Of a stretch of DNA of 64,000 nt, positions 10,162 through 60,672 are shown in pieces. Within the stretch, counting starts at the first letter, position 1, and each line of letters opens with the position of its first letter. The DNA lies in the NCBI GenBank assembly GCA_018266375.1, contig JAFEAO010000008.1, forward strand, positions 62,001 to 126,000, in the 5' to 3' direction. This DNA is from Bdellovibrionales bacterium (GTDB lineage Bacteria; Bdellovibrionota; UBA1018; CAIMNF01). Under the pieces are notes generated by a model. It had not been told where the DNA came from. It was given only the letters and a program-made list of their open reading frames with translations, and did no database searches. The position numbers were made by a program, and so were the translations under genes.

Positions 10162-10927
10162 AGTCCTCATCACCGGCGCAAGCCAAGGCATCGGCGCCGC
10201 ACTCGCTTGCGAGTTCGCCAAACAAAAAGCGACTCTCGTCCTCGTGGCGCGCACGCAAAGCAAACTTGAATCGGTTGCGGACAAGTGCAAAACTCTGGGC
10301 GCGGAGAGCGTTCAACTCGTTGCGGCGGATCTGTCCGAGCCTGCGTCTTGGGACAAGGTCGCGCAAGCGGGCGCTCAAGCCGGCATCAACATCCTAGTCA
10401 ATAACGCCGGTTACGGTCTTTGGGGCGAATTCGCCGAGCAGTCGCTCGAAGCACTCCAAAAAAACATGCGTCTCAATATGGACGCGCTCCTGGTACTCAC
10501 TCACAAATTGATTCCGACGCTAAAAAAGTCTCAAAAGAGCTACGTCATGAACGTATCGAGCACGACCGCGTATCAAGCGCTGCCGACTTTCGCGACCTAC
10601 GCCGCTTCTAAGAGCTTTGTGCTCATGTGGAGCCGCGCGCTTCATCACGAGCTTAAAAAATCGGGTATCTCGGTAACCGCTCTCGTACCTGGTGCGACCG
10701 ACACGGGCTTTATCGAGCGCGCGAACATGCAACACATGGAAGAGGCGGCAAAGAAACTGAGCATGACTCCGGAAGCGGTCGCTCAAATTGGGATTTCCGG
10801 CATGTTCAAAGGCAAGATGGAAGTCGTGCCGGGCCTGATGAACAAAGTATCGGCCGTTGCGGTTCCGTTGCTCCCTAAAAAGATGGTCGAAAAGATCGCC
10901 GCTAACATTTACATCAAGAAACAATGA
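10142..10927 (+). CDS. Short-chain dehydrogenase/reductase
   Basis: 261 residues. The start at 10142 gives the canonical SDR N-terminus KHKVLITGASQGIG (NAD(P)-binding TGxxxGIG). NNAGYG follows, and the catalytic Ser-Tyr-Lys is in NVSSTTAYQALPTFATYAASK. The downstream part (LVPGATDTGF) fits classical SDRs of the DltE/YqjQ kind that reduce lipid or keto substrates. It overlaps the PhyH gene by 20 nt and the YeiH gene by 4 nt (ATGA), which argues for a shared pathway with the oxygenase. Confidence 0.92.
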   Translation: MNNLKHKVLITGASQGIGAALACEFAKQKATLVLVARTQSKLESVADKCKTLGAESVQLVAADLSEPASWDKVAQAGAQAGINILVNNAGYGLWGEFAEQSLEALQKNMRLNMDALLVLTHKLIPTLKKSQKSYVMNVSSTTAYQALPTFATYAASKSFVLMWSRALHHELKKSGISVTALVPGATDTGFIERANMQHMEEAAKKLSMTPEAVAQIGISGMFKGKMEVVPGLMNKVSAVAVPLLPKKMVEKIAANIYIKKQ

Positions 10928-11859
10928 AACATATTCCGAAGGTCGTCGTCGCCGCGCTGTTTGCGTTGTGCTTCTCACCCGGAATCTCGAGTGCGCTCGC
11001 GCTCGTGATGGGAATGGTCTGCGCCTTCACGCTCGGGCAACCCTTCGAGCCGTCGAATGCTAAAAAGTTTCAAACTTATTTATTGCAGGCTTCCGTCGTG
11101 GGCTTGGGCGCCGGCATGAATCTTGTCGAAATCTTAAAGCAAGGCGCCACGAGTATTCCGATGACCTTGATTGCGCTGACTCTGATCATGACTGCAGGGA
11201 TGCTGCTCACCCGCGCCTTAAAACTCTCGACCAACCTGGGCTGGCTTCTGTCTTCAGGCACCGCGATCTGCGGCGGAAGCGCGATCGCAGCACTATCGCC
11301 GGTCATCCGCGCGCGCGATGAAGAAATCTCGATGTCGATGGGCGTGGTGTTCTTGCTCAATTCCATCGCGCTTCTGATTTTTCCGGTCATCGGCGCTCAC
11401 CTCGGAATGAACCAGCACGAGTTCGGGCTTTTCGCGGCTCTCGCCATTCACGACACCAGCAGTGTCGTCGGTGCGGCTGGGCAATACGGCGCGGAGGCGC
11501 TGAATGTCGCCACCACAACCAAACTGGTACGCGCACTTTGGATCGCTCCCCTCTGCTTGGTCATCGCCACGTACATGAAATCTCACGCTGGAGCGGCGCC
11601 GGATGGAACTCTGGCAAAAGTCAGTTTCCCGCGGTTCATTCTCTTTTTTATCGCGATGTCGGCGTTTGTAACATGGGTATGGCCGCTCCCGATCGTCTAC
11701 ACCCTAGCCAAACGCTCGCTCGTGGCTTCGATCTTTTTGATCGGATTGGGCTTTAGCCTCAAAAATCTGAAAGCAGTGGGCACGAAAGCGCTCGCAGCTG
11801 CCGTGATCCTCTGGATGTTCTCGATTAGCGTCTCGTGGATCGCGATTCACTTTAATTGA
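10924..11859 (+). CDS. YeiH/UPF0324 family membrane protein (putative sulfate exporter)
   Basis: 311 residues, about nine to ten hydrophobic segments. Family signatures GLGAGMNL, SSGTAICGGSAIAA and FAALAIHDTSSVVGAA are clear. UPF0324 proteins are annotated as putative sulfate exporters on slender evidence; the true substrate is unproven. It overlaps the SDR gene by ATGA and is the fourth gene of the cluster. Confidence 0.88.
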   Translation: MKHIPKVVVAALFALCFSPGISSALALVMGMVCAFTLGQPFEPSNAKKFQTYLLQASVVGLGAGMNLVEILKQGATSIPMTLIALTLIMTAGMLLTRALKLSTNLGWLLSSGTAICGGSAIAALSPVIRARDEEISMSMGVVFLLNSIALLIFPVIGAHLGMNQHEFGLFAALAIHDTSSVVGAAGQYGAEALNVATTTKLVRALWIAPLCLVIATYMKSHAGAAPDGTLAKVSFPRFILFFIAMSAFVTWVWPLPIVYTLAKRSLVASIFLIGLGFSLKNLKAVGTKALAAAVILWMFSISVSWIAIHFN

Positions 11860-11880
11860 CAAAAGTGATACCTCTAGCCC

Positions 11881-13125
11881 ATGAACACCCCCACGATTCC
11901 CCCAGCCGGCACCTCGGCTAATCGATCTGCCGTTACCGTAATCTTTACGACGGTCTTTTTGGATCTGATTGGGTTTGGAATGATCATTCCACTTGTGGGG
12001 ATTTACGGAAAACACTTCGGCGCCGGAGCGCTCGGTCTCGCCGTCTTAGGCTCAATCTACTCGATCATGCAGTTTTTCTTTTCGCCGATCTGGGGCCGTC
12101 TTTCGGATCGCGTCGGCCGCAGGCCGATCATTCTCATGTCGCTTGCGGGCTCAGTGATCTCCTACGGAATTTTTGCTTTTGCCCACAGCTTTCCGATCCT
12201 CGTGGTCTCGCGGGCGTTTGCGGGCATCTTTGCTGCCAACATCTCGACCGCGCAAGCCTACATGGCGGACGTCACGAGCAGCCAGGATCGCGCCAAAGGC
12301 ATGGGTCTCATCGGCGCCGCGTTCGGAATTGGTTTTACGCTTGGCCCCCCGGTCGGCGGGATTTCAGCCGGCAAAATCGGGCTTTGGGCACCCGGTGTGA
12401 TCGCAGCGAGCTTCTGCCTCCTCAACCTGATCCTGGCCTATTTTCGCTTAAAAGAAAGCCTTCCAGCCGAAATCCGCGAGAAAAACAAAGGCCGTCCGAG
12501 CACCGGAGCTCGTCGCGCTCAACTGGAAACACTCCTGCGCGTCTCCAAAGATCCAGCGCTATTTTTGCCGGTGATCTCGACATTCTTCACAACCTTTGCA
12601 TTTTCAAACCTCGAGCAAGTGTTCTCGCTTCTCATTCAAAACAAATTCACGCTCGCTACGGAAGAAGCGGGCTACAAGACCGGGATGGTTTTGATGTGGT
12701 CAGGACTTTTAGGCGTGATCGTGCAAGGCGGACTCATCCGCAAGCTCGTTCCAAAGTACGGCGAAGTGAAACTCGCGATCAGCGGTTTTTTTATTCAAGG
12801 GGCTGCGATGATTCTTTTTTCGCACAGCCCAACTTACGGAGCATTTTTTTTAGCCGCCATCCCACTTGCCTTGGGAAGCGGTTTGATCACCCCCACGCTC
12901 GCTGCACTTGTGTCGAAACGTTCAAGTGCCCACGAGCAAGGCGCGGTCATCGGACTCAAAGAAGGGCTCTCCAGTCTCGCACGTGTTTTTGGTCCATTTT
13001 GCGGACTCTTAGCGTTCGGACTTCAAGTTCATTTTCCGTTCTACATTGCTGCGTTTACCGTATTCATTCTCGGTTTTGTCTGGCTTAGCCGCGAACAAAT
13101 TTCGTCCCCACAAACGTCCTCCTGA
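11881..13125 (+). CDS. MFS transporter, DHA1/TetA-like
   Basis: 414 residues with 12 predicted membrane segments. The loop 2-3 motif GRLSDRVGRRPIILMS is MFS motif A, and GIGFTLGPPVGG is the motif C of drug/H+ antiporters (TetA group). Likely an inner-membrane proton-driven effluxer of small molecules. It starts 21 nt after the YeiH gene and probably belongs to the same transcript, though a TTGACA lies at the end of that gene. Confidence 0.88.
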   Translation: MNTPTIPPAGTSANRSAVTVIFTTVFLDLIGFGMIIPLVGIYGKHFGAGALGLAVLGSIYSIMQFFFSPIWGRLSDRVGRRPIILMSLAGSVISYGIFAFAHSFPILVVSRAFAGIFAANISTAQAYMADVTSSQDRAKGMGLIGAAFGIGFTLGPPVGGISAGKIGLWAPGVIAASFCLLNLILAYFRLKESLPAEIREKNKGRPSTGARRAQLETLLRVSKDPALFLPVISTFFTTFAFSNLEQVFSLLIQNKFTLATEEAGYKTGMVLMWSGLLGVIVQGGLIRKLVPKYGEVKLAISGFFIQGAAMILFSHSPTYGAFFLAAIPLALGSGLITPTLAALVSKRSSAHEQGAVIGLKEGLSSLARVFGPFCGLLAFGLQVHFPFYIAAFTVFILGFVWLSREQISSPQTSS

Positions 13126-50618: not shown

Positions 50619-53570
50619 TTACTTCGATGCCGGACGGCGTGAGTTTACGACGACTTGTTCGTTGTAGAATCTTTGCTCGAGCGCGCGGATCATGTTCCAC
50701 TTCTGCTCCGCGGTTGTCGTGCGTGCGCGGTCCGAAGACGGAAGCGTCTTATTTCTAAGAACGCTCAACAGATCGTTCTTCGCGTCTTTGCTCTGATTTT
50801 TCATCTGAGCGATGAATTCCTCTTTGTTCAGGCCGTTCATCTTGCTCTTCTTGTCAGCAAGATCCAGGAAAAGAGCATGCTCGATACGGATATAATCGAC
50901 AAGTGCTTCCTCATCCATCCCCATCGTTTTCTCACCGGTCATAATATTATTGAGTTCTTTGACCCAAGCGCTTTGGAGTTTGTTGTCTAGCTTCATCTCG
51001 AGGTAACCCTCGTTATAAAGCACGTTGTTAGCGTAATCCATTTGGAAGTCGGTACGCACATCGAGTTTCAGCGCCAGACGCTGCTCGCGCTCCGCTTGAA
51101 TTTTCTTGATCCATTCGCCGGTTGCGCCGTCTTCGTGTGATGCACGACGTTCACGCGCGGCCTCACGGATCGCGTCTGGCGCATAATATGCGGTAATGCC
51201 AAGGAGTACGACGACGATACTTGCAACCGCGCTCTTGACCCAGAAGCTCTTAATGTCTTGTTTACGGTCCGGGTTAAACGGAGCTACGATCTCGTTACCT
51301 TCGCTGGTAAGCGCATTTTTGAGCTCGATGGCGAACTTGCCGTGGAACTCATGAATCAGCGACGAAAAACTCGAGTTCTGACCGACTTTTGAAAGTGCCG
51401 TACGAGTCACACTATCGACGAACGCATCCAAATCGCCCGAAAGGCGGTCTTGAAGTTTCTTCTTTTCGTCAGCGGCCCAAAGATTCATCTGATTCTGTTC
51501 GCGAGATTTACGCGAAGAGAGATCGTTCTTCCACTCGTCCTGCTCGGACTCGAGCTCGGCTTGAGCGGCCGCGCGAAGCGCGTTGACTTCGTCAAAAGTT
51601 GCTTTGCGAGTTGCCGCCTGGAACTCGTCCATCTCTTTGCGGACCTTCGCTTCGTGAGCCTCTGCTTCCTTGCGGCCCTCCAAGATGATATTGGTCTTTT
51701 CTTCGTGAGCGAGTTTTACCGCGGTATCGCGATCGAGCTTGTTCTTCTTTTGTTGCTCGGTGAACTCGGCTTCGAGTTTAGTCAAAGCTGCTTTTTTAGC
51801 TTCAGTCTGCTCGGTGAGCTTTCTGAACTCGGTCTGAAGTTTCAATTCAAGCGTTTCATGGACGCCAATCACCTTTTTCAGGTCGGACTCTTCGTTGCGG
51901 CGACGTTCGAGTTTTTCGTTAGCGGCAGCGACGTCTTTCACTAAGCGCTCGAGATCCTTCTTCGCGTCTTCGATAGTTCTTTTGACTTCGGTGAGTTCGC
52001 GCTCAAGGACCACTTTCTCGGTACGGCGCTGCTCGATGACCTTTTGCTCTTGGGTCTCACGCAGGTCGATCTCCGCGACGAGTCTTTCCAGGCGAATCTG
52101 ATGGGTCTTTTGCTGAGCCTCGAAAGCCGTACGAAGTTCTTTTTCTTCGTCAGCGAGCTTCGCAGCAGTCGTTTTGTGCTCATCGCTGATCCGAACAGTT
52201 TCACGCTCGGTGGTCTGACGGTGATCGTTCAAATCGTCCGTGAGACGCTTCTTTTCGCGTTCGGTTTCCGTACGAGCCCGTTCCGCCTCGTTTTCAAGCT
52301 TACGCGTCAGCGCCGTCTGCTCATTGTTCAAGCGCTTCATCAAATCCGCGTGCTCAGCTTCGTTACTCTCAACGAGAGCCCTGTGCTCGGCTTCGAGTTT
52401 GACTTTACGCTCATTGTGGTAACCGGCGAGGTCCGCTTCGCGAGCCGCGTGCGTCGCTTCGAGCTTTTCTTTGAGCACGCGGAACTCGTCTTCCGTCTTC
52501 GCTTTCGCAGTACGGTGGTCTTTCATGAGCTTTTCGTGCTCATTGCCGTAGTATTCTTTTTCGTTCTCGAGGTCCTTTTCGAGCTTATCTTTGGTCTCAG
52601 CAAGCTCGGACTTCAGTTCGGCCGTCTCGCGATGGAGTTTCTCGACCGCTTTTTGATCGCGTTCTAGTTCTTCACGGCGACCCTTGAAGTAAGTTTCTTC
52701 ACGACTGAAGTTTTCTTCAAGCTCGGCCGCCTTTTTCCGAAAACGAGCATCCTCGTCTTTGATCTTGTCACGAAGACCGCTTAGGCGATTTTCCTGCTCG
52801 ACCATCTCCTGACGGAGCTGGCGAATTTGATCCTCGACTTCGTGTTTTTTAATTTCGGCTTCGCGAAGCTCTTTTTCGACTTCAAGCTGTCTCAGGCGTA
52901 AACGCTCGAGCTCGGCTTTGACTTCGAGCTGGCGAGAGACCGACAACAGGATCGAGTTCTCGGATTCAGTTTCCCAGCCCTTTGCAGCAGGTTTTTGAAC
53001 CGGTTCCTTCAGAACGGATGGCGTGTCCTCACCGTCGAGCTTCTTGTTCAGAGCCTCGACGTCATTCGGGTCCATTTCTTTGATCACGCTTTCTTCTTCG
53101 CCGATGACTTGCTCGTGGTGTTCGACTACGATCGAACGGGACGGATCGTGGCCAATAGGCTCAAGATGCGCTTCGATTTTTCTCGACTCGTCTTTTTTGT
53201 CAGGTTTGGAGAGCGCCTTAGCGCGCGTGAAAGTCTTCGTTCCATCTTTGACCGCGGTCTCTTCCAGAATCTCGATGATATTTCCATCCGAAGCGGGGCC
53301 GAGGTTGAACGGCCCGCCGAAATAATCCACAGGCAGGTTCAGCGGCAGTTTTTTGCCTTTGTAGAAAGTTCCGTTCGTAGAGCCGAGGTCGGTCAGAGCG
53401 ATTTCGCCATCGGCTATTTTAATTTTGAGGTGCTTGCGGCTGATTCCGGCGCTATCGATACAGACATCGTTCTCCGAGGAACGGCCTACCGTCGTTTCGT
53501 CCTTCGTCAGGAGAAGCTCAGTACCCGTCTTCGGAGTCTTGATCTTGATCTTGAATAGCGGCTTCGGCAT
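50619..53570 (-). CDS. FHA-domain giant coiled-coil membrane protein
   Basis: 983 residues. Residues 1-105 are an FHA domain: GRSSEND (29-35), SRKH (44-47) and STNGTF (64-69) are its phosphothreonine-binding loops. From about 205 to 730 runs an almost unbroken Lys/Glu-rich coiled coil. A single membrane helix (about 778-797, VASIVVVLLGITAYYAPDAI) precedes a 185-residue helical C-terminus expected in the periplasm. The FHA and coil would be cytoplasmic. It is the last gene of the operon, 8 nt after the MotA-like gene with no ribosome-binding site, so translation is probably coupled. A kinase-regulated link between signalling and the stator is a fair guess. Confidence 0.88.
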   Translation of the reverse strand: MPKPLFKIKIKTPKTGTELLLTKDETTVGRSSENDVCIDSAGISRKHLKIKIADGEIALTDLGSTNGTFYKGKKLPLNLPVDYFGGPFNLGPASDGNIIEILEETAVKDGTKTFTRAKALSKPDKKDESRKIEAHLEPIGHDPSRSIVVEHHEQVIGEEESVIKEMDPNDVEALNKKLDGEDTPSVLKEPVQKPAAKGWETESENSILLSVSRQLEVKAELERLRLRQLEVEKELREAEIKKHEVEDQIRQLRQEMVEQENRLSGLRDKIKDEDARFRKKAAELEENFSREETYFKGRREELERDQKAVEKLHRETAELKSELAETKDKLEKDLENEKEYYGNEHEKLMKDHRTAKAKTEDEFRVLKEKLEATHAAREADLAGYHNERKVKLEAEHRALVESNEAEHADLMKRLNNEQTALTRKLENEAERARTETEREKKRLTDDLNDHRQTTERETVRISDEHKTTAAKLADEEKELRTAFEAQQKTHQIRLERLVAEIDLRETQEQKVIEQRRTEKVVLERELTEVKRTIEDAKKDLERLVKDVAAANEKLERRRNEESDLKKVIGVHETLELKLQTEFRKLTEQTEAKKAALTKLEAEFTEQQKKNKLDRDTAVKLAHEEKTNIILEGRKEAEAHEAKVRKEMDEFQAATRKATFDEVNALRAAAQAELESEQDEWKNDLSSRKSREQNQMNLWAADEKKKLQDRLSGDLDAFVDSVTRTALSKVGQNSSFSSLIHEFHGKFAIELKNALTSEGNEIVAPFNPDRKQDIKSFWVKSAVASIVVVLLGITAYYAPDAIREAARERRASHEDGATGEWIKKIQAEREQRLALKLDVRTDFQMDYANNVLYNEGYLEMKLDNKLQSAWVKELNNIMTGEKTMGMDEEALVDYIRIEHALFLDLADKKSKMNGLNKEEFIAQMKNQSKDAKNDLLSVLRNKTLPSSDRARTTTAEQKWNMIRALEQRFYNEQVVVNSRRPASK

Positions 53571-53578
53571 AGGTTAAG

Positions 53579-54583
53579 TTAAGAAGCTTTCTTATCTTCT
53601 CCTTGTTTCTTTTCAAAGCTCATGGTGACTTCTTTGACCGGCGGCACCACCGGATCACGACGTTGGTCATGACCGCGTTTAGCGTCCCCTTCAGCCACTT
53701 GCTTTTGCACCGACAATGCGGCGAGCGCTTCGTTAGGGTTTTTGTGTTCATCGAACGCCGGGAGGTTCGCAGGGATTTCGTTGTTGTCGCTGTGTTTCCA
53801 CAAAAAAGACATAGTGTCTTGATAACGCTCGACGACGCCTACAAATAATTTCTCCGGGTTGAAGAACGAGTTAAATACTTGAGTCAACACCGAGTACAAG
53901 ATCCCGAGAGTCGACGTCGCCATCGAGAACGCCACCTTGAGGAGGAATGTGTCCATTACGGCTTTAGTTGAGTTCGGATCGTTGACGTCCATACCGCCGA
54001 GTTCAGGAAGGGCTTTCATGATCCCGAGGAAGGTACCGAAGATCCCGCCGACCACGAAGAGGCCGGGCAAAATCGAAGTGAAATCGAAAATCGGTCCGGA
54101 TTGAATTACACCGAACATCTTTGAGAAGCACGGGTTGTTCGAGAGCACGTTCTTCGATACGCCGAGGAGCATCGAGTCGTCGGTATTTTCTTTCTTGAGC
54201 ACCTTACTTTGCTTCAAAGTGTCGCGCACCATGTACGCGCAACCTTGCTGGATCAAAAATATCCGGTCGCTCGGTGCCATGATATTGTCCGTTTTGCGGC
54301 GACGCATGGAGTTTCTGATCTCGAAGAGCTCGTAGAAAGTCTTTTCGAGCAATGTCTTCATCGAGACAAAGTATGAAAACTTCGCGTGTCCGTTTTCGTT
54401 TTCGAGCCAGCGGTGCGCGCGCTTCTCGAACTCCTTTACAAACCACTCTTGCCGCTTGACCGTGAAGTACAAGACTGCCCGGCTGAAGAGCCCTCCGAAG
54501 AAGAAAATGGTCATGATCGGGAGGAGTAACTCCTTCCCAAACAGCACCAATCCGTCAATAAACGCGTGGATGATCGTATTCAT
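53579..54583 (-). CDS. MotA/TolQ/ExbB-like proton channel
   Basis: 334 residues with three membrane segments: about 10-40 (LLLPIMTIFFFGGLFSRAVL), 165-195 (SILPGLFVVGGIFGTFLGIM) and 215-240 (FLLKVAFSMATSTLGILYSV). GIFGTFLGI and the AFSMATSTLGI strand match the conserved channel helices of the family. GAGGAG precedes the ATG. About 75 cytoplasmic residues follow the last helix (EKKQGEDKKAS end). With the MotB/OmpA-like partner it should form a stator-type ion-driven complex in the inner membrane. Identity among flagellar, Tol, Exb, Agl or Zor types is open. Confidence 0.88.
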   Translation of the reverse strand: MNTIIHAFIDGLVLFGKELLLPIMTIFFFGGLFSRAVLYFTVKRQEWFVKEFEKRAHRWLENENGHAKFSYFVSMKTLLEKTFYELFEIRNSMRRRKTDNIMAPSDRIFLIQQGCAYMVRDTLKQSKVLKKENTDDSMLLGVSKNVLSNNPCFSKMFGVIQSGPIFDFTSILPGLFVVGGIFGTFLGIMKALPELGGMDVNDPNSTKAVMDTFLLKVAFSMATSTLGILYSVLTQVFNSFFNPEKLFVGVVERYQDTMSFLWKHSDNNEIPANLPAFDEHKNPNEALAALSVQKQVAEGDAKRGHDQRRDPVVPPVKEVTMSFEKKQGEDKKAS

Positions 54584-54594
54584 ATGTTCTCCTC

Positions 54595-56391
54595 TTAATC
54601 CTTCAACTTAAATTTAATGATGACCTTTTGGGCCGATTTACAATTGTATTGCTTACAAAATTCTCTTTCAGGCATGCCGTTTCGGAAATCGTCTGACGTT
54701 TTACCGTCCGGGAGGAACCCACGGCCGACGACCTTGATCTTAGGAAGAAGCTCTTTTTGGTGCTCGAATTTCATCTGCTTTGTATCGAAAATGTGCTTGA
54801 AGATCGAGTTCGCGCGGTCGAAGCTGAGCTTTAAGTTATAGTTAACCGCTGCCTGATCTTCGGGACGCAAACTGTCCGGAGCGACGTAACGTCCACCATA
54901 CGTCGACGACGCGAAACCGATGATTTCGACGTTCTCGATTTTCTCGGCGATCTGGCCGTCTTTGAACAAACTGCGCGAGTAACCCGGAAGGAACTTCTCG
55001 AGCGTGCGTTCCATCGTCGGCTTCAGGTGCGCGCTGCCGGTATCGAAGTATTCTTCGCCGAACGCGAGGGTCACGTCGCCGGTTTTGCCGTCAACCGTCC
55101 CCTTCAAGCCGGCTTTCTTCAACTCGCTTTGAATCCGCCCCGCCAGCATTTTACGAGCGTTTGCAATTTCTTGGGCATGTTTGAGCTCCGTATTAAGTGA
55201 AGCCATATTGCGTTGGAGGCCTTCCTTTTCGCCTCTCAAACGTTCCGCCTGTCCGCGCGCGGCATCGGCAGCCGCACGAGCGCCAGCCGCTTCCGCTTTC
55301 GCGCCCTCAACCTGAGACTCAGCGGCGGCAGCGCGTCTTTCGACATCGCCGAGTTTGCCGGCGAGCTCCGCCTCACGGGCCTTGGATTGAGCCGCATACG
55401 CTGCGATCCGCTTCGCGCGCTCTTGGCCGCTCAAACGTTCCTTACGCAATGAATCCTCAAACGCTCCGCGTTCCGCTTTCATGCGGGCTGCGTGTTCGCT
55501 TTTCAAACGAGCCATTTCCGCATTTGCTTGAGCGCGGGTATTTTGAACTTCGTTTTGTGCCTCAGCCAGCTGTCCCGAAACCGAAGCCAAGTTGCTCTTC
55601 GCGCTGTTCAATTCCTTCATGAAATTGTTATTTTTAGACTCGAGCGCGGAGACCTTTTGATCGCTCTCTTTGCGAAGCGAAGCGATCTTCTTGTTCAACT
55701 GTTCGCGCGAGCTGTGAAGGCGTTTTTGCTCCGCAGTCATCTTCGCGATCTTGTCGTCCATCTGTGACTTGATCGACTTGATTAAAGCGCGGTTGGCGTT
55801 CAAATTTCTGGTCTTTGCTTGAATATCCGCGTTCAAGTCTTCGATCTCTTCTTGGTTGTGGGCGATCTCGACGTTCTTGTTAGCAATGACGGTACGTTGC
55901 TCGCCGATCTTGGTCTCTTTGTTCGTGATCAACTCCTCGCGATTTTTGATCTTGGACTTCGCGAGAATGTTGTTGTTGATGATGTTGCGGATCATCTGCT
56001 GATATTCGTTCAGAGCCAGTTCCTTCTCTTCGTTTTCCTTGGCTTGCTTACGCAGGTCTTCTTTTTCGTTCTTGGCATCTTCTTTCAAGAGCGTGAGCTT
56101 GTTCATCAAGCGGTTGTAAACTTCTTGCTCTTTCTCGGACGACTCTTTGAGCTGTTGCTCCTTCAAGGCGTTGTACACTTGAATCTGCTGCTCAAGATCC
56201 GCAGCTTTTTGCGAAAGCTTTTGGTATTCGATGTTCTTTTGTAAACTCGACGTCTGAGTTTTCACGCTCGCGGTGACGTACAAAAGCAGGAATACAATAG
56301 ACAACATCAGGAACAAGTCGCTGTATGACGTCCACATGCTGTCTGAGCCGTGCTCGGTTTGTTTTTTTGCCTTCTGGTAGTCGAAGCTCAT
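54595..56391 (-). CDS. MotB/OmpA-like stator protein with long coiled coil
   Basis: 598 residues from the ATG at 56391 (GGAG 10 nt upstream; 56439 rejected). A short cytoplasmic tip is followed by one membrane helix beginning WTSYSDLFLMLSIVFLLLYV, with Asp25 placed like the proton-carrying Asp of MotB, TolR and ZorB. Residues about 45-414 are a coiled coil, Ala-rich toward the end. Residues 415-598 form an OmpA-like peptidoglycan-binding domain (FGEEYFDTGSAHLKP, VEIIGFASST, LSFDRANSIF). First gene of the three-gene unit, 11 nt before the MotA-like gene. Confidence 0.9.
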   Translation of the reverse strand: MSFDYQKAKKQTEHGSDSMWTSYSDLFLMLSIVFLLLYVTASVKTQTSSLQKNIEYQKLSQKAADLEQQIQVYNALKEQQLKESSEKEQEVYNRLMNKLTLLKEDAKNEKEDLRKQAKENEEKELALNEYQQMIRNIINNNILAKSKIKNREELITNKETKIGEQRTVIANKNVEIAHNQEEIEDLNADIQAKTRNLNANRALIKSIKSQMDDKIAKMTAEQKRLHSSREQLNKKIASLRKESDQKVSALESKNNNFMKELNSAKSNLASVSGQLAEAQNEVQNTRAQANAEMARLKSEHAARMKAERGAFEDSLRKERLSGQERAKRIAAYAAQSKAREAELAGKLGDVERRAAAAESQVEGAKAEAAGARAAADAARGQAERLRGEKEGLQRNMASLNTELKHAQEIANARKMLAGRIQSELKKAGLKGTVDGKTGDVTLAFGEEYFDTGSAHLKPTMERTLEKFLPGYSRSLFKDGQIAEKIENVEIIGFASSTYGGRYVAPDSLRPEDQAAVNYNLKLSFDRANSIFKHIFDTKQMKFEHQKELLPKIKVVGRGFLPDGKTSDDFRNGMPEREFCKQYNCKSAQKVIIKFKLKD

Positions 56392-56561
56392 GGATAAGGT
56401 TCTCCAGTAGTCTATTTCGGCAGAACCCTGACAATTCATGAGTTTGCGGCCGATTTTCCGTCGACCGGGGGCGAATTGCGTTTTACGCCGGTTGCAGGAC
56501 CCTCTTTATCGTCAAAGTCCTGACCATACTTTAGTTTTTAGAGTGCTTTATCCCGTTGATC

Positions 56562-58381: not shown

Positions 58382-59854
58382 TTACAAGAAAGAGAATAAA
58401 AGTTTAATATCTTCGTCTTCGAAGCGGATCCCCGCACCGTAGAAGGTCGACAGCTTGCCGCCGACCTTACGATAGCCCTCGATCCCGCCCGAGAGGTAAA
58501 AAATGGAAATTGGCTGGAATATCAAATAGCTGCGGCCATCCGCCAGGGCAGTCCAGTTCCCTGCTCCATCGGCCTGAGACCTAAAATAGAGCTCATTTTT
58601 AAGCTGGATCTGCTCCAGGTGCTCCGGGTCCCAACCCAGGTTAATCCCCAAAGAAGCAGCCCCATCTCCGTATAAAAGACCGACGGCGAGGTCAAAGCGT
58701 TGGGCAAACACCTTCCCGATCATCACGCTATAGGAGAACCCTCCCTTGTTATTGGTGGTGTTGCGAGTGGTGTTTGTGATCCCGTTTGAATCGACCGTGT
58801 TCGTGACTTGGTTCACCGTTCCGCGCGGATCCGATGATATGCCGATCAAGTAGTAGCGATCGGGTTTTGGCCAGATACTCAGCTGGAATGAGGAACGAGC
58901 ACCGGTCCACGCATCCATTTCTTGGATTCCGAGATTCACGAGGAGCTTAATCTCGCTCGCACGTCCCAAAAGCTTATTGACGCTGGTGATCGCCTTCTTC
59001 AATTCATCGGCGTAGTAAGGATCATTGAGCACCATCCCCACCGATCCTTTGCCTTGGTTGATCCGAGTCGCTTGATCGCGCAACTGCTCGATCGCGTCTT
59101 CGAGCTTGATGAGCGAACGCTGTGCGGTCGCGGTCAATCCGCCTTGAGGCGAAAACGCTTTCGACGCGTCCTTCAATGTGTCGTTCAATTGTTTGATCGT
59201 CGAGCGAATCTCTTCGGGACGGATCGACTCCTTCAGCGAAGTCATGATGGTGTTGAGTTGGCCCATGACTTGTTGCATGTCGGCAGCTTTTTCGCCGATC
59301 GGAATTTCTTTCGCGCCCTTCGTACGGTTCGGTGCCGGAGGCGCGTCAGCCTGAGCGTAAGCATCGCTGATCCAGAATAATTTTTTAAGTAAGTTCGAGC
59401 TTTTCGGCTGAGCCGGTTGCTCGGCAGGCGCGCCTTCTTGCGGGCTCATCGTCGAGTTCGGAACCGCGTCTTCCATTCTGTGAGTGCCGGTGTATCGAAC
59501 CGGTTTCAACTCCAAAAAGCGATCACCCAAAAAACCTTCGGCACGGACAAATGCTTTCGTGTCGGGCACGACTTCAACCGGCGCGGTGATACAGATCTTA
59601 AGCTTCACGCCGTTCGGAACCATCGCGATATCCTCAATGAATCCGATGTCCAATCCCAGCGATTTAACCGGGGCTTTGGTCTTCAGGCCCGTCGCGTCTT
59701 CAACCGTCACCATCACTGAATCGCATGGACGCCACCAAAACGGGCGGTTGTTAACATAGATGGAAAGAGCACCGAGCAGGAGTAACGTCGCGAGGGTAAA
59801 AAATCCGACCCGGAGTTTTGTTTTTGTGCTGGCTTCGTTTGAATTTGTACTCAT
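58382..59854 (-). CDS. MCE-domain (MlaD-like) lipid-transport protein
   Basis: 490 residues with an N-terminal membrane anchor (LRVGFFTLATLLLLGALSIYV) and an MCE domain (VMVTVEDATGLKTKAPVKSL, GFIEDIAM, AFVRAEGFLGDRFLELKPV). A Pro/Gln-rich linker, a helical region (about 190-310) and a beta-rich C-terminus (SFQLSIWPKPDRYYLIGISS) follow, far beyond the 180 residues of MlaD. It should be the periplasmic lipid-binding unit of a Mla-type transporter. The next gene upstream is the permease. Confidence 0.88.
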   Translation of the reverse strand: MSTNSNEASTKTKLRVGFFTLATLLLLGALSIYVNNRPFWWRPCDSVMVTVEDATGLKTKAPVKSLGLDIGFIEDIAMVPNGVKLKICITAPVEVVPDTKAFVRAEGFLGDRFLELKPVRYTGTHRMEDAVPNSTMSPQEGAPAEQPAQPKSSNLLKKLFWISDAYAQADAPPAPNRTKGAKEIPIGEKAADMQQVMGQLNTIMTSLKESIRPEEIRSTIKQLNDTLKDASKAFSPQGGLTATAQRSLIKLEDAIEQLRDQATRINQGKGSVGMVLNDPYYADELKKAITSVNKLLGRASEIKLLVNLGIQEMDAWTGARSSFQLSIWPKPDRYYLIGISSDPRGTVNQVTNTVDSNGITNTTRNTTNNKGGFSYSVMIGKVFAQRFDLAVGLLYGDGAASLGINLGWDPEHLEQIQLKNELYFRSQADGAGNWTALADGRSYLIFQPISIFYLSGGIEGYRKVGGKLSTFYGAGIRFEDEDIKLLFSFL

Positions 59855-59886
59855 ATTGTTGTCGCTTTGTGTTTAAACACCCGTGG

Positions 59887-60672
59887 TTAATGAAAAAAAA
59901 GTTTAGGCGCGCGAACCGGCAGCACCATCGTCCAAAAATAATCGAGTAAGAGAATCGTCAAGCAAGTCGCGACGACCGTCGAGCGCGTCGAAAGGCCGAC
60001 CGCTCTCGCGCCGCCGGTTGCGCGAAACCCGTAAAAACATCCGATCGTCGTGAGCGCGAATCCGAAGGTCGCTCCTTTAATTACGCAGTGGACGAAATCC
60101 ACCCAGTCGACCCAGGCGCGGAATGTTTTCCAAAACACCGGCATGCTCAGGCCAAGAACGCTTGTTGCAATCAAGCAGCCCGCAAGCGTCGCTATCGCGC
60201 CAAACACCACCGACAAAAGCGGCATCATCGCCATCCCCGCCGCCACGCGAGGCGCGACCAAATACTCAAACGGATCGACACCCATCACATCGAGCGCGTC
60301 GATTTGCTCGGTCACTCGCATCGATGCGACTTCGGCACCGATCGCGGCACCCGCACGGCCCGTCACCATGATCGCGCCCATCACCGGGGCCATCTCGCGA
60401 AAGAGCGACACGCCGATGGTGCCGCCAACCATCGCCTGCGCGCCGAAGAGCGCAAACGAGGTGTAGAGTTGGTAGCCCAAGACTGCGCCCATAAAGACGG
60501 CCGCGACGGAGAGGATTCCGAAACTCGACACACCAATGAACTCGCATTGGTTGATAAAGAGATCAAAACGCTTCGGAAGGCGCCTTGCGCCTTGGAGCAA
60601 GCGGCCCAAAAACAAACTGAGTTCGCCGAGCCAAGATACGGCTCCAAAGAATGGGGACAAAAGGGTCGTCAT
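59887..60672 (-). CDS. mlaE: MlaE-family ABC permease
   Basis: 261 residues with about five membrane segments. ITVTGRAGAAIGAEVASMRV-like block (VTGRAGAAIGAEVASMRVTE) and ALDVMGVDPFEYLVAPRVAA are the MlaE signatures. It is the inner-membrane permease of a phospholipid transporter. No MlaF ATPase gene lies in this cluster, so it must come from elsewhere. Confidence 0.95.
   Translation of the reverse strand: MTTLLSPFFGAVSWLGELSLFLGRLLQGARRLPKRFDLFINQCEFIGVSSFGILSVAAVFMGAVLGYQLYTSFALFGAQAMVGGTIGVSLFREMAPVMGAIMVTGRAGAAIGAEVASMRVTEQIDALDVMGVDPFEYLVAPRVAAGMAMMPLLSVVFGAIATLAGCLIATSVLGLSMPVFWKTFRAWVDWVDFVHCVIKGATFGFALTTIGCFYGFRATGGARAVGLSTRSTVVATCLTILLLDYFWTMVLPVRAPKLFFH

Follow-up and report, generated by a model that had tools for sequence, protein, structure and literature searches.

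A recurrent three-gene cassette of Bdellovibrionota, apparently encoding a Zorya-related membrane motor with a transmembrane FHA protein

The window analyzed here, a 64,000-nucleotide stretch of DNA from a Bdellovibrionales bacterium, contains at 50619-56391 on the reverse strand three co-directional open reading frames, separated by 11 bases (MotB-like/channel) and 8 bases (channel/FHA gene). The earlier note had described this region as a stator-like three-gene system, and the three frames were indeed found there with the expected domains: a MotB/OmpA coiled-coil protein (598 aa), a three-helix channel (334 aa), and an FHA coiled-coil membrane protein (983 aa). Nearby, the window encodes MlaD-like and MlaE-like components of a lipid-transport system (58382-60672). 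The features of the cassette are as follows.

54595-56391, reverse strand: ZorB/MotB-like subunit, 598 aa, with a WTSYSD membrane helix, a coiled coil at about residues 46-410, and an OmpA-like domain with two invariant Cys; assigned from the ZorB1 model PDLC00609 (E=4.7e-30)
53579-54583, reverse strand: ZorA/TolQ/ExbB-like channel subunit, 334 aa, with three helices and no ZorA-type tail; assigned from ZorA_4 (E=4.1e-8)
50619-53570, reverse strand: FHA protein, 983 aa, with the FHA domain at about 10-100, a Pro-free charged helical region at 211-745, a membrane helix at about 772-801, and a conserved C-terminal domain, predicted to be periplasmic, at about 805-983
50622-51275, reverse strand: C-terminal 218 residues of the FHA protein, comprising the membrane helix and a conserved all-helical, predicted periplasmic domain with the motif YxDNxLYT; no Pfam family or PDB fold matched

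The MotB-like protein, which would be 614 aa long if translated from an upstream ATG at 56439, has a single N-terminal membrane helix led by the sequence WTSYSD, which places Asp25 at the start of the helix. Asp25 is invariant in 69 of 69 sequences, in agreement with the expectation that the Asp of the YSD motif is conserved among homologues, and is the candidate proton acceptor of the helix. Residues 46-410 contain no Pro in 365 residues and form a long helical or coiled-coil region that leads to the C-terminal domain. The OmpA-like model PF00691 matched this domain in 40 of 44 relatives at E<0.01, with the window protein itself below the Pfam cut-off, and the ZorB models matched all 44 relatives in addition to the window protein. 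Its only PDB match was the ZorB of a type II complex (E=3.4e-7). The N..LS..R motif of the domain is invariant, as are its two Cys, which likely form a disulfide. In the known motors cited by the earlier note, the OmpA domain grips peptidoglycan; in the cassette, the classical peptidoglycan-binding Asp is replaced by Ser in 77 of 77 sequences, but type II ZorB has Ser at the same position. Between the membrane helix and the OmpA-like domain, the helical stretch has a median length of 329 residues (~330 in most relatives), corresponding to ~49 nm when fully extended. This coiled coil exceeds the perpendicular span of a normal periplasm and is several-fold longer than the straight reach to the peptidoglycan, and therefore, it must run along the wall or fold back.

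For the channel, three membrane helices are predicted and the AlphaFold2 model has a mean pLDDT of 89; in this model, the last helix ends at residue 306, after which the chain is structureless, with residues 312-334 below a pLDDT of 50. T184 and S224 are invariant in 55 sequences and, by our own reading, occupy the positions of the pore Thr residues of ExbB and TolQ. When the channel was compared with PADLOC and NCBIfam, the ZorA models scored best, though under the NCBIfam curated cut-offs. The channel family profile, searched against solved proton channels, matched ZorA only (E=1.6e-5), and a fold search with the channel model returned ZorA first, followed by TolQ and ExbB, all as loose superpositions with TM-scores of 0.3-0.5. 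The comparison with ZorA was therefore an apt one, as ZorA is the nearest solved relative of the channel both by sequence profile and by fold. The Pfam MotA_ExbB model (PF01618) scored under its cut-off, and the channel is not among the eleven MotA/ExbB copies that Pfam detects in the genome; its fold and the conserved pore Thr/Ser fit the MotA/TolQ/ExbB superfamily.

Based on the ZorA and ZorB profile, fold, and PDB matches, the MotB-like/channel pair belongs with ZorAB rather than with MotAB. We also considered a flagellar MotAB and rejected it, given that the Pfam MotB_plug and MotA_ExbB models stay under their cut-offs and that the topology is three-helical. MotAB resembles the pair in having a B subunit with an Asp-bearing helix and a peptidoglycan-type domain, whereas MotA differs from the three-helix cassette channel by a fourth membrane helix and a torque-generating domain. 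The Zorya ZorAB complexes (PDB 8qyd, 8vvn, and 8vvi) come closest to both subunits in sequence-profile searches and to the channel in the fold search, and ZorB shares with the MotB-like subunit the N-terminal Asp helix and the OmpA-like domain. The ZorA chains, however, are 696-729 aa long (8vvn, 8qyd) and carry a fused tail, while the cassette channel has 334 aa and no tail; the cassette also lacks a Zorya effector neighbor and possesses instead an FHA transmembrane partner gene and the ~330-residue periplasmic helical stretch. Zorya defense requires both the wall-binding domain of ZorB and the extension of ZorA (PMC11890865), so that, if the FHA protein does not provide such an extension, the missing fused tail truly sets the cassette functionally apart from Zorya.

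The FHA domain was identified by Pfam (PF00498, E=3.7e-14), and the residues of its phosphothreonine pocket, G29 R30, S44 R45 x H47, and N66 G67 T68, are invariant in 10 relatives; across 74 relatives, only the Gly is fully invariant and the remaining pocket positions are majority residues. The genome encodes two clear Ser/Thr kinases, and eight further FHA matches were found in it. The kinases and the intact phosphothreonine residues are consistent with the link to Ser/Thr phosphorylation that had been raised as a possibility. Residues 211-745 are helical, with no Pro and 45% charged residues, and in relatives the FHA domain and the membrane helix lie 175 to 1138 residues apart. The partners at L116 (9991-11394) and L118 (9991-11388) have ~466 residues with a short middle, and that at L058 reaches 1445 residues; from this size range, the coil length is not conserved.

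The earlier note had described the protein as an FHA coiled coil with one C-terminal membrane helix. The FHA domain, the coil, and the single helix were all found, but the helix (~772-801) is followed by ~180 conserved residues and is not C-terminal. The mean net charge is +3.2 before the helix and +0.4 after it, and the N-terminal side is the more positive one in 50 of 54 relatives. From this positive-inside pattern, the FHA domain and the coil are predicted to be cytoplasmic and the C-terminal domain periplasmic, which does not agree with a separate cytoplasmic effector, the role first proposed for the FHA protein. The C-terminal domain has 12-26% identity among relatives, in which it is recognizable by YxDNxLYT, and its model consists entirely of helices (pLDDT 88). 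It matched no Pfam family, and a PDB fold search with the model gave no match at E<=0.001; a TonB_C domain was sought in 43 relatives of the FHA protein and found in none. As to the idea that the ZorA tail has been split off into the FHA protein, the channel has no fused tail, and the FHA protein has no sequence match to ZorA and the opposite polarity, running from a distal N-terminal FHA head to the membrane. That the FHA protein stands in for the ZorA tail is thus a guess.

To describe the distribution of the cassette, we used an alignment query, which was needed as a single window protein found nothing in the genome scan, and obtained 80 loci from named public genomes, nearly all of them from Bdellovibrionota or from unplaced proteobacterial bins (L063 and L127 look mis-binned). 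In 75 of these 80 loci, which were found by the channel, the order is MotB-like gene, channel, and FHA gene, the last directly downstream of the channel. Three of the five exceptions (L078, L089, and L127) are at or near contig ends, L096 has its FHA gene on the other side and strand, and L068 has no FHA gene. Conversely, when 18 loci of other families were retrieved by their FHA domain, 17 had the channel directly upstream of the FHA gene. At the level of whole genomes, 132 of the 369 examined from the phylum have the FHA C-terminal domain, 129 have this group's channel, and 128 have the two together; 5 are discordant and 236 have neither, so that the FHA gene does co-occur with the stator pair in relatives, as the earlier note had predicted. 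The pairwise distances of the three proteins also correlate (r=0.71-0.82, with 0 of 2000 permutations as high), a correlation to which shared ancestry contributes. Since it recurs across a phylum, the cassette is beyond chance. The three genes apparently encode an uncharacterized ion-driven membrane motor related to that of Zorya. We also noted a lone FHA/C-terminal-domain gene at L144 6926-8803 (genome G118), for which the 16 kb retrieved contained no motor genes, and two genomes, G304 and G305, with the FHA C-terminal domain but no detected channel.

These data bear on whether the FHA protein is part of the motor at all. It could instead have a cytoskeletal or scaffolding role outside the motor and only be encoded in one operon with a Tol/Zor-like envelope pair; the variation of its middle (175-1138 residues) is scaffold-like, and in four genomes the FHA domain was detected but no channel. 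We consider this very unlikely because the co-occurrence and adjacency of the FHA gene with the channel are near-perfect, and because a pure cytoplasmic scaffold would need neither a membrane helix nor the predicted periplasmic domain.

Six loci in the order of the window (L039-L044) form a second motor branch, in which a MotB/MotA-like pair occurs without an FHA gene. Five of these loci have an upstream, divergently transcribed gene for a membrane protein that carries ankyrin repeats at its C-terminus.

L039, 5486-7573: ankyrin-repeat membrane protein gene
L041, 11086-13167: ankyrin-repeat membrane protein gene
L042, 6567-8060: ankyrin-repeat membrane protein gene
L043, 1526-3037: ankyrin-repeat membrane protein gene
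L044, 12359-14005: ankyrin-repeat membrane protein gene

The absence of the FHA gene together with the presence of the ankyrin-repeat protein suggests a replaceable partner, and the FHA partner is therefore not obligatory for every relative. The first ~100 residues of the ankyrin-repeat protein form a domain; we considered that this protein might start with an FHA domain and rejected the idea, as a profile comparison gave no match. Beside the sister motor pair of L039, two related genes are found at 10873-13105, the first with clear flagellin domains, and in L043 the pair is located near relatives of the dut, hisS, serB-like, and mlaD-like genes of the window.

The kinship with ZorAB raises the question of anti-phage defense. 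In such a scenario, the cassette would be a tail-less Zorya relative whose FHA protein replaces the ZorA tail and, on an alarm raised at the wall, signals to an effector whose gene lies elsewhere. Both motor subunits have ZorA and ZorB as their nearest known homologues, the cassette occurs in some members of a genus but not in others, and it has no conserved place in the genome. Some other families (f11 and f18) are intermingled in the channel tree, suggesting occasional transfer. The FHA-linked copies of the window's order nevertheless constitute one clade in the same tree (100/94 support), and those genomes of genus g89 that have the cassette hold one copy each. Neither the 72,556 plasmids searched with the channel nor the 50,697 phage records searched with the MotB-like protein yielded a match, which also led us to reject a mobile or phage-borne origin. 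A PADLOC scan of the ten genes flanking the cassette in the window detected no defense gene and no Zorya effector (ZorC/ZorD, ZorE, or type III partners), and no gene family beyond the cassette recurs in at least 8 of 99 neighborhoods; nucleases, proposed earlier as neighbors to look for, are thus not found nearby. A genome-wide search for EH_Signature, which we take to be the ZorC domain, gave no match, and the control searches likewise matched nothing. A complete Zorya system was rejected from the lack of a tail, an effector, and defense neighbors, and the broader defense scenario appears quite unlikely to us. According to the channel tree, the cassette has mainly been passed down within lineages, with a degree of transfer and numerous losses. 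The cassette is missing from many near-complete genomes, several of them even in the genus of the window, and it is therefore not essential.

Predators are among the carriers, including Bacteriovorax sp. BSW11_IV (L075) and a genome of genus g89 with a length of 3,782,950 bases, which we take to be B. bacteriovorus HD100 and which has a complete cassette at about 1,107,724-1,112,616. The open reading frame at L128 14318-15880 is presumably Bd1176, an L,D-transpeptidase gene. By gene order only, counting back from Bd1176, Bd1167 probably belongs to the cassette. A Tn-seq study of B. bacteriovorus names Bd1176 as a gene for remodeling prey peptidoglycan, and its main text names no gene of the cassette. 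Our literature search found no paper on the three-gene cassette.

The nearest precedent for an FHA partner on a motor is the gliding machinery of Myxococcus, in which the stator AglRQS has as its partner GltG, a membrane protein combining an FHA domain on the cytoplasmic side with a C-terminal domain on the far side of the membrane, an architecture that resembles the one predicted for the cassette FHA protein. A two-hybrid assay showed AglR to interact with GltG (PMC3169522), which is one experimental precedent for an FHA transmembrane partner on a gliding stator. Together with the presence of the cassette in predators, this speaks for a gliding or prey-interaction motor, similar to AglRQS-Glt but with a different stator family, that would serve attachment, entry, or exit. 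There are also differences. AglQ and AglS are ExbD/TolR-like and have no OmpA domains, whereas the B subunit of the cassette is MotB/ZorB-like with an OmpA-like domain; GltG ends in TonB_C and the cassette FHA protein in a helical domain; and the match of the GltG model to the FHA protein covers only the FHA domain (residues 26-75). No Glt genes for TPR or outer-membrane components are conserved near the cassette, Bdellovibrio already carries aglRQS/glt clusters (PMC3169522), and the silence of the Tn-seq main text on the cassette also counts against a prey-related motor. We therefore regard this narrower form of our model, described below, as somewhat unlikely. In genome G000 (contig C10, 487872-500183), two MotA/ExbB genes and an FHA gene lie within ~12 kb, possibly a separate Agl/Glt-type cluster.

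In the model that we consider probable, an ion-driven motor linked to the wall acts together with the FHA protein, a transmembrane coiled-coil transducer that responds to phosphorylation and that is either moved by the motor or gates it. By analogy with the 5:2 complexes of the ZorAB/TolQR kind, five channel copies and two MotB-like copies would assemble into an inner-membrane motor, and ions, either proton or sodium, would pass via Asp25 of the MotB-like subunit and Thr184 and Ser224 of the channel. The long periplasmic coiled coil of the MotB-like subunit would carry its OmpA-like domain to the cell wall. The FHA protein would have its phosphothreonine-reading head and its long coil on the cytoplasmic side and its small helical domain on the periplasmic side, and it may dock on the channel through its single membrane helix, comparable to TolA, TonB, and GltG. 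The TolQRA and ExbBD-TonB systems share with the cassette the three-helix channel fold and a separate single-helix transducer that reaches the periplasm, but TolA and TonB have no cytoplasmic FHA domain or coiled coil, TolR and ExbD have no OmpA-like domain, and TolQ and ExbB were found by the channel fold and not by the channel sequence profile. The movement of the motor might be passed to the FHA protein or, in the other direction, the phospho-state of the FHA protein might gate the motor. Either way, the FHA protein could connect the envelope, and the mechanical work or sensing done there, with a cytoplasmic structure or with Ser/Thr phosphorylation.

As for the function of this motor, a cell-envelope or predation role, including gliding, is likelier than defense because the module is chromosomal, mostly lineage-bound, and effector-free; its patchy presence and its kinship with Zorya leave some probability for defense. 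We put forward, tentatively and as a possibility short of an even chance, that the cassette represents a new class of envelope machine, in which a ZorAB-family motor works outside defense, the FHA protein is the moving or gating part, and Ser/Thr kinase signaling controls envelope work in predatory and related bacteria. If so, the ZorAB motor of phage defense would belong to a larger family, of which it is a single branch and which has a chromosomal role throughout the Bdellovibrio phylum, and the part on which the motor acts would be exchangeable, being a fused tail, an FHA protein, or perhaps, in the second branch, an ankyrin-repeat membrane protein. In laboratory predators, the cassette also makes it possible to test whether FHA/Ser-Thr phosphorylation is linked to an ion-driven envelope motor.
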